Assembly: GCF_900176135.1 (NCBI RefSeq)
Contig: NZ_FWWW01000098.1
Span: 1-64,000 of the forward strand
Direction: 5' to 3'
Source: Hymenobacter roseosalivarius DSM 11622
GTDB lineage: Bacteria > Bacteroidota > Bacteroidia > Cytophagales > Hymenobacteraceae
Length of the DNA: 64,000 nucleotides
The translations under genes and the position numbers were made by a program. The notes below the pieces were generated by a model. That model saw nothing but the letters and a program-made list of their open reading frames with translations, was not told where the DNA came from and ran no database searches. Each line of letters begins with the position of its first letter. The stretch's first letter is position 1. This document shows, one piece after another, positions 23,766-25,474 of this stretch.

Positions 23766-23803
23766 AAAAAAGCCCCCCAGAAATGTTTCTGGGGAGCTTT
23801 TTT
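23766..23803 (+). terminator. Rho-independent terminator after the C40 peptidase
   Basis: AAAAAAGCCCCCCAGAAA pairs with TTTCTGGGGAGCTTTTTT (one mismatch) across a short loop. The left arm is a GCCCCCCAG motif copy (23772). Confidence 0.88.
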
Positions 23804-23856
23804 GTAAAAGGTAGTCATCGACGCAATGCAAAGGAAAGTGCCAAATCGTACTAAAA

Positions 23857-23915
23857 AACGATGCCCGGTCGCCTGTGCAGAACCTACTAAAAGGCTGCTG
23901 GGCGAACCGGGCATC
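23857..23915 (-). terminator. Minus-strand terminator of the small RNA/sORF unit
   Basis: On the minus strand GATGCCCGGTTCGCC pairs with GGCGACCGGGCATC across an internal loop of about 27 nt and is followed by GTTTTTTAG. It closes a transcription unit that starts near 24224. The other strand lacks a T run, so the polarity is clear. Confidence 0.65.
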
Positions 23916-24036
23916 TAATCCTTCAAATCTTACCAAGCGACGAGTCTGGGGTTCAGCCCCGTCATCCTCTGTGTAAGACCTTGCCAGAATGCGGGAAAAA
24001 GCCCTGTTGAGGCATAATTCCGCGCGAAAGCTGTTG
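23916..24036 (-). ncRNA. Putative structured 3' region of the sORF transcript
   Basis: Downstream of the 23-residue ORF the minus strand carries a GC-rich hairpin (GGGG-ctga-CCCC flanked by GACG/CGTC) near 23945-23970 before the terminator. Two further tiny frames occur here, one ending at TGA overlapping an ATG (ATGA), but without independent support. I found no match to tmRNA, RNase P RNA or 6S RNA ends. The function is unknown. Confidence 0.35.
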
Positions 24037-24108
24037 TTAAGCGCGTCCGGCGGTGAAGCGGACTACATTCGACAGGCTTGGCAGGACTTGGTTGGGACTA
24101 CTAGACAT
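24037..24108 (-). CDS. 23-residue small ORF with a strong Shine-Dalgarno
   Basis: The minus-strand ATG at 24106-24108 is preceded, five bases away, by AGAAAGGAGGT (24114-24124), an 11-nt match to the anti-Shine-Dalgarno end of 16S rRNA. Bacteroidota genes almost never have such a site; a known exception is rpsU (bS21). The peptide starts MSSSPNQVLPSLS and ends in a basic RFTAGRA. A promoter lies at 24231-24259 and a terminator at 23857-23915. It could be a leader peptide or an RNA whose SD senses free anti-SD. An in-frame extension upstream without its own start signal looks spurious. Confidence 0.55.
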   Translation of the reverse strand: MSSSPNQVLPSLSNVVRFTAGRA

Positions 24109-24230
24109 TTTGTACCTCCTTTCTTTAGATCCGACATCCCTCAATCGCGTTTCCCAGCACCTTAGGGACCCTTGAAAGAGGTCGTAGCACTCACTACTGG
24201 TCGGTAAAGTTAAAAGACCCTCGGATGGTT

Positions 24231-24259
24231 CAAAATTAAAAAGCCTTTTTTTAGCCAAA
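24231..24259 (-). promoter_or_regulatory. Minus-strand Bacteroidota promoter for the sORF unit
   Basis: Read on the minus strand, TTTG (complement of 24256-24259) is followed after 17 bases by TAATTTTG (complement of 24231-24238), matching the TTTG-N(17-23)-TAnnTTTG promoter. Transcription would start near 24224, giving a leader of about 115 nt before the sORF ATG. Confidence 0.65.
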
Positions 24260-24456: not shown

Positions 24457-24900
24457 ATGAGAAAAACTTTGTTCCTCTGTCTGACCCTACTGTTGGGTTA
24501 CTCTGGATTGGCTTCGGCCCAGTCGCTTTCGCCCCTGGGCACATGGACCAACTCTGAAAAGAAGGCCACATTTGAAATCTACAAATGCAACGGTGACAAG
24601 CTGTGCGGCAAAATCGTGTCGCTGACTACGCCCAACGATCCGGCCACGGGCAAGCCCAAAACCGATTCGATGAATCCCGACCCAAAAATGCGCTCCAAGC
24701 CCCGCCTGGGCCTCGTGTTCATGCAGGGCTTTGAGTACGATGAAGGCAACAAGTGGGACGACGGCAAAATCTACGATCCGGAGACGGGCAAAACCTACTC
24801 CTGCTACATGAAGATGCAAAACGCCAACACGATGGAGGTGAAAGGCTACATCGGCTTCTCCATGATTGGCCGCTCCCAGACCTGGACCCGCGTGAAGTAA
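24457..24900 (+). CDS. DUF2147 secreted protein, paralog 1
   Basis: The 147-residue protein has a signal peptide (MRKTLFLCLTLLLGYSGLASA) followed by the DUF2147 lipocalin-like beta-barrel. Hallmarks are 'LGTWTNSEKKATFEIY', the Cys pair CNGDKLCGK, 'WDDGKIYDPETGKTYSC' and 'VKGYIGFSMIGRSQTW'. The fold suggests binding of a small ligand, but the role is unknown. A paralog follows at 25028. The terminator at 24926-24960 separates them. Confidence 0.88.
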   Translation: MRKTLFLCLTLLLGYSGLASAQSLSPLGTWTNSEKKATFEIYKCNGDKLCGKIVSLTTPNDPATGKPKTDSMNPDPKMRSKPRLGLVFMQGFEYDEGNKWDDGKIYDPETGKTYSCYMKMQNANTMEVKGYIGFSMIGRSQTWTRVK

Positions 24901-25027: not shown

Positions 25028-25474
25028 TTGAAACACCTCTTCTTTACGTTGTTGCTGTGCTTAGCAATCATAGCGGGCGCAGCCGCCCAAACTCACTCTC
25101 CGCTGGGGGTGTGGAAAGACGATGCGGGCGAAACTCACGTAGAGATATATCGGTGCGGCAACTCGAAGCAGCTGTGCGGGCGGTTGGTGTGGCTGAGCGA
25201 GCCGCAGGATTCGACGACGAATTTGCCCAAAACCGACCGCCGCAACCCCGAGCCAGTAAAGCGCAATCAGCCCCTGCTCAATCTCGTGGTGATACAAGAT
25301 CTTAGCTATGACCCCGATGATGAGCGCTGGGAAGATGGCCGGATCTATGACCCTATGAATGGACGCACCTATTCCTGCTACCTCAACATGGTTAGTAAGG
25401 ACCGCATGGAAGTGAAAGGCTACATCGGCTTTTCCTTCATTGGGCGCTCCCACTATTGGTCGCGGGTGAAGTGA
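25028..25474 (+). CDS. DUF2147 secreted protein, paralog 2 (TTG start)
   Basis: The 148-residue protein has the same DUF2147 layout as the neighbour at 24457: signal peptide (KHLFFTLLLCLAIIAGAAA), 'LGVWKDDAGETHVEIY', 'QLCGRLVWL', 'WEDGRIYDPMNGRTYSC' and 'VKGYIGFSFIGRSHYW'. The only start that keeps the signal peptide is TTG at 25028. The two copies have diverged considerably, so the duplication is old. A long inverted repeat follows. Confidence 0.85.
   Translation: MKHLFFTLLLCLAIIAGAAAQTHSPLGVWKDDAGETHVEIYRCGNSKQLCGRLVWLSEPQDSTTNLPKTDRRNPEPVKRNQPLLNLVVIQDLSYDPDDERWEDGRIYDPMNGRTYSCYLNMVSKDRMEVKGYIGFSFIGRSHYWSRVK

Follow-up and report, generated by a model that had tools for sequence, protein, structure and literature searches.

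The minus strand of the window, the whole 64,000-nt stretch of Hymenobacter roseosalivarius DSM 11622 analysed here, carries an RNA unit (23853..24230) that is real and conserved and that none of the sources we searched describes. Its main feature, missed by the initial annotation, is a long-range helix between a short open reading frame (ORF) and the 3' tail of the same RNA; this helix is a new finding and is maintained by compensatory change across families. We read the unit, with a probability of about 40%, as a stand-alone gene for a structured RNA that contains a short, translated ORF and acts as a riboregulator, gated by translation, for ribosomes whose anti-Shine-Dalgarno sequence is free. 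The parts of this reading that comparison shows are the Shine-Dalgarno (SD) sequence, the short ORF kept open and the pairing of the ORF strand with the 3' element, and we infer that the RNA is gated by bS21 status and that its output acts in trans.

The promoter, leader, SD, ORF and terminator of the initial annotation were each found at the positions given there, and its view of the locus as a complete unit agrees with the conservation of the whole across relatives (37 of 37 same-genus genomes; alignment of 59 sequences); the unit also extends further than described. All of its parts lie on the minus strand. Transcription is predicted to start at about 24226, downstream of a Bacteroidota-type promoter, TTTG-N17-TAATTTTG (24231..24259), that consists of TTTG at 24259-24256, a 17-nt spacer and TAATTTTG at 24238-24231, with the TTTGAAC block kept in relatives. 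The leader between promoter and SD, about 115 nt long, contains a 5' hairpin, GUAGUGAGUGCUAC (24184..24197), that is paired in 100% of the alignment cells, with two pairs changed on both sides; its counterpart in family f5 is GGUGACGGUCGUCACC. Then follow the extended SD AGAAAGGAGGT (11 nt, 24114..24124), invariant in the 59-sequence alignment, the ORF of 23 codons plus stop (MSSSPNQVLPSLSNVVRFTAGRA, 24037..24108), the 3' element GCUUGGUAAGAUUUGAAGGAUUA (23916..23938) and an intrinsic terminator (23853..23915), the covarying stem of which pairs GATGCCCGG (23915-23907) with CCGGGCATC (23868-23860) ahead of a T-run. The unit is flanked by a convergent NlpC/P60 gene (23145-23741) on one side and by a divergent DUF2147 gene on the other. 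The latter is one of two tandem DUF2147 genes (24457-24900 and 25028-25474), and several further Hymenobacteraceae loci (L033, L106, L131 and L143) likewise have a DUF2147 gene upstream of the RNA. A second, nearly symmetric terminator-like hairpin occupies positions 23767-23808, between the RNA and the NlpC/P60 gene.

The transcript sequence folds better than all 100 shuffled versions (z -2.6). The RNAalifold structure of the 59 sequences consists of the 5' hairpin, a hairpin internal to the ORF, the terminator and the long-range helix, in which ORF codons 3-11 pair with GCUUGGUAAGAUUUGAAGGAUUA directly ahead of the terminator. On the ORF side, the helix is formed by UAGUCC (24095..24100; partner GGAUUA, 23921-23916) and by GUCCUGCCAAGC in codons 8-11 (24076..24087; partner GCUUGGUAAGAU, 23938-23927). 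The alignment fold, covariation and duplex energies identify the 3' element as the partner of the ORF. On this structure, 97.3% of the cells pair, and covariation reaches 0.203, compared with 0.108 in shuffled alignments and at most 0.062 when the partners are slid. Because the long helix is nearly invariant within the family, comparison across lineages is the stronger test, and here both strands change together: AAAUUUUGUCA with UGACAAAAUUU, AAGUUUUAUCA with UGGUAAAAUUU, and UAUCUGGUA with UAUCAGAUA. Among 36 representatives, the ORF-3' duplex of each RNA (mean -16.7 kcal/mol) was in every case stronger than the mean of the duplexes with partners swapped from other lineages, with a median z of -3.3 against shuffles; a second duplex test yielded a mean z of -3.7, with z below -2 in 32 of the 36. 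Three other proposals were rejected. A switch in which the 5' leader segment AACUUUACC would capture the 3' element has a mean z of -0.18 and fails in genus g25; the leader segment CCUCUUUC, considered as a built-in anti-SD, has this form in the present species only and is a plain stem arm elsewhere; and GGAUUAGAUGCCC, which resembles the 790 loop of 16S rRNA, is lost outside the genus group and was taken as a coincidence.

The initial annotation had staked its reading on conservation of the ORF and SD in relatives, and both are kept throughout the genus and family genomes compared. BLAST detected one copy per genome in 37 of 37 same-genus genomes; a single genome from another family matched at the SD-plus-start block only. 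With pattern and model searches, the unit was found once in each of 45 sampled genomes of its own family, in 7 of 8 genomes of family f5, and in families f17 and f20. A scan of named genomes gave about 41 Cytophagales members, among them Pontibacter, Adhaeribacter, Botryobacter, Chryseolinea, Ohtaekwangia, Chryseosolibacter, Dawidia, Nafulsella and Xanthocytophaga, and five genomes from two further families (f75 and f101) emerged from a model search of the whole class. Matches in genomes G220, G070 and G136 were rejected as members on inspection. Searches of the window and 13 homologous loci against the 4227 Rfam families, which include tmRNA, 6S and RNase P, gave no match at gathering score, and around the unit there was no credible match at E<10; a match to AaHKsRNA41 (E 0.00045) was discarded because it scores 26.8, where the gathering score is 97, and its alignment rests on two terminators. 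ARAGORN detected no tmRNA. No description of this RNA was found in the literature searched, which comprised mostly non-subscription articles and no preprints.

In a phylum otherwise with few SD sequences, rpsU is the known exception. The initial annotation had made both points, and the rarity of the SD agrees with our results, but rpsU is no exception in this genome: it has no SD, its upstream sequence ending in cccccttaacagaaagttttcaactccactgcatat-ATG. The whole genome (4.95 Mb) has only two occurrences of the pattern AAAGGAGGTN{2,10}ATG (against 4+4 of the reversed control pattern), and the second site looks accidental. Given the SD-less rpsU, the RNA is effectively the sole extended-SD site of the genome. 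In the 100 distinct copies of the RNA, the pairing energy between SD and anti-SD ranges from -17.5 to -20.3 kcal/mol, compared with a median of -4.3 and a best value of -15.4 kcal/mol upstream of 317 ATG starts of ORFs of at least 100 aa in the window. The 16S tail GGATCACCTCCTTTCT was identified in two other members of the family, the tail pattern having no match in the draft of the H. roseosalivarius genome itself; with this tail, the SD is complementary to the entire ACCUCCUUUCU sequence. These energies fall within the range of -14 to -21 kcal/mol that is distinctive of rpsU, the extended SD of which forms 9-13 bp with the whole 16S tail and is usually the one outstanding SD of a genome (PMC9976891). 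The predicted folds do not discriminate between an open and a closed SD, and neither special masking nor special exposure finds support in them.

An SD of this strength, which spans the whole tail and is the most constant block of the unit, could also act as a decoy for the anti-SD, as the initial annotation suggested; under this scenario, it would bind 30S subunits whose 16S tail is free and park them, and translation would be incidental. A pure decoy is, however, improbable because the reading frame is under selection, as are ORF length and the start codon, and a decoy has no need for the ORF-3' helix. The frame stays open over 18 codons in 100 of 100 distinct copies, compared with 21 and 0 for the shifted frames, the length remains within 18-23 codons, and the start codon, where altered, is GTG (four genomes of one genus and two of f5). 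The comparative evidence thus says that the ORF is probably translated.

Whether it is the peptide that matters is a separate question. The product that matters might be a functional micropeptide (18-23 aa), with the unit as its structured mRNA and the SD and hairpin just setting the rate of synthesis and stability. In keeping with this possibility, the frame, start codon and N-terminus MS[SN]PxxxL are kept in Cytophagales, serine at codon 13 is retained through AGT as well as TCG and TCC, and pN/pS of the ORF is 0.35 within Hymenobacter. Nevertheless, we regard this explanation as rather unlikely. In the hairpin internal to the ORF (24045..24063), where GUCC pairs with GGAC, position 3 of codon 16 and position 2 of codon 21 form a Watson-Crick pair in 31 of 31 distinct ORFs, which forces codon 21 to vary among Gly, Val and Glu; moreover, the C-terminus shifts frame in some lineages, and the peptides of f75 and f101 (19-22 aa) are different while the layout is the same. 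The peptide sequence appears to be secondary because it differs between families and gives way to RNA pairing.

A long-range lock on a small ORF is also the arrangement of type I toxin mRNAs, in which 5'-3' pairing performs this role, and the unit could be such an mRNA or one similarly locked. This we consider very improbable: the RNA is single-copy in every genome of a family, the peptides are, by inspection, not the hydrophobic, membrane-spanning kind, no antisense RNA gene was recognised, and the helix holds the coding region rather than the SD. It is equally improbable that the unit controls a downstream gene in cis, as an attenuator or leader peptide. A small ORF, structure and a terminator are indeed the attenuator layout, and a leader peptide had been among the first suggestions, but the classical form finds no support because no downstream gene is conserved (over 29 loci it varies and is often on the opposite strand) and the NlpC/P60 gene of the window is convergent. 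More generally, neighbouring genes are not conserved between families, which makes a role in cis unlikely and points to action in trans. With its own promoter and terminator and no synteny, the unit is predicted to be a stand-alone transcript of the kind expected of a dual-function small RNA.

The preferred reading, the translation-gated riboregulator, draws on what is known of Bacteroidia ribosomes, in which the 16S tail is buried in a pocket of bS21, bS18 and bS6, and on the finding that, in Flavobacterium johnsoniae, ribosomes lacking bS21 translate the extended-SD rpsU better (PMC9976891). Under this model, most ribosomes of the phylum would be blocked from the SD and the RNA would stay locked because bS21, bS18 and bS6 hold the 16S tail. 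Ribosomes that lack bS21, or otherwise have a free tail, would initiate at the SD, move through about 20 codons and open the ORF-3' helix, which would free the 3' element or alter the stability of the RNA; the output would then act in trans on a putative target. This reading is favoured by an SD that equals in strength those of rpsU mRNAs known to be translated by ribosomes without bS21 and is nearly unique in a genome with an SD-less rpsU, by the selected frame and start codon, by RNA pairing that overrides amino acids, by a helix kept across families, and by the lack of conserved synteny.

Two comparisons with rpsU also speak for this reading. SD-less rpsU was found in 33 of 33 RNA-bearing genomes examined, whereas 7 of 33 RNA-lacking Cytophagales have an SD-led rpsU; this contrast is suggestive and, because it follows clades, is not an independent test. 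In Nafulsella turpanensis (NZ_ANNU01000025.1, L109:3369-4782), the RNA and a bVLRF1 release-factor gene (PF18826) are divergently oriented, and the latter is followed by an SD-less second rpsU, encoding a bS21 paralogue; the other rpsU of this genome has an extended SD. Against this reading stand the SD that is not specially exposed, the clade structure of the rpsU contrast, a pN/pS value also expected of a functional peptide, and the pairing of the 3' element with rpsU, which does not exceed chance. Antisense action on rpsU would be the obvious output, and a match of 11 of 12 positions between the 3' element and rpsU in this genome initially seemed striking, but with a mean z of 0 across 33 genomes the idea is not supported. 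We also entertain, more tentatively, a broader version, in which such RNAs are class-wide sensors of ribosome state: they would be translated only by ribosomes with an exposed 16S tail, and what switches the RNA would be passage of the ribosome through the ORF rather than the peptide made. If so, where a lineage has no rpsU SD, the RNA would substitute for it, and control by specialised ribosomes would reach beyond bS21 autoregulation.

Given its sequence features, the RNA is best read as resembling an SD-gated dual-function RNA rather than as a member of the rpsU system. Dual-function small RNAs with a small ORF include SgrS and RNAIII, which share with the present unit a stand-alone structured RNA, a translated small ORF and a terminator; here, in contrast, the 3' element pairs with the ORF itself, and the likeness is one of layout. 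The rpsU mRNA of F. johnsoniae has a similarly outstanding SD matching the whole 16S tail (PMC9976891), but our RNA encodes a peptide of about 20 aa (23 aa in H. roseosalivarius) unlike bS21, with the rpsU gene elsewhere, is stand-alone with a terminator, has an ORF locked by its 3' tail, and occurs where rpsU is without an SD. Within the phylum, Rfp18 of Flavobacterium psychrophilum, which affects protease mRNAs, is likewise a conserved structured small RNA; it is compared here by description, and the account consulted mentions no SD or small ORF (PMC9723704). Throughout a large bacterial order, annotation of larger ORFs overlooks this gene, which is conserved, structured and probably translated. 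Among the mRNAs favoured by bS21-lacking ribosomes, rpsU is the best described, and the presence, in genomes with an SD-less rpsU, of a single-copy RNA that is conserved and has an SD of rpsU strength makes other clients of such ribosomes directly testable.

A survey of 395 Bacteroidia genomes for a 13-nt SD followed by ATG returned 35 sites, of which 8 belong to this RNA class, 2 to rpsU and 2 to Hsp20-like genes; most of the remainder look gene-internal or accidental. The Hsp20-like gene is preceded by AAAGAAAGGAGGTGCCTATG in two genomes of family f111 (L301 and L302) and represents another Bacteroidia class of extended-SD genes. A strong SD, AAAGGAGGTAACTATG, lies ahead of a gene for an RNA polymerase sigma-factor-like protein in two genomes of family f92 (L271 and L272), and AAAGAAAGGAGGTGC...ATG occurs five times in genome G976 (L286; contigs C5, C31, C64, C91 and C114), as if on a repeated element.
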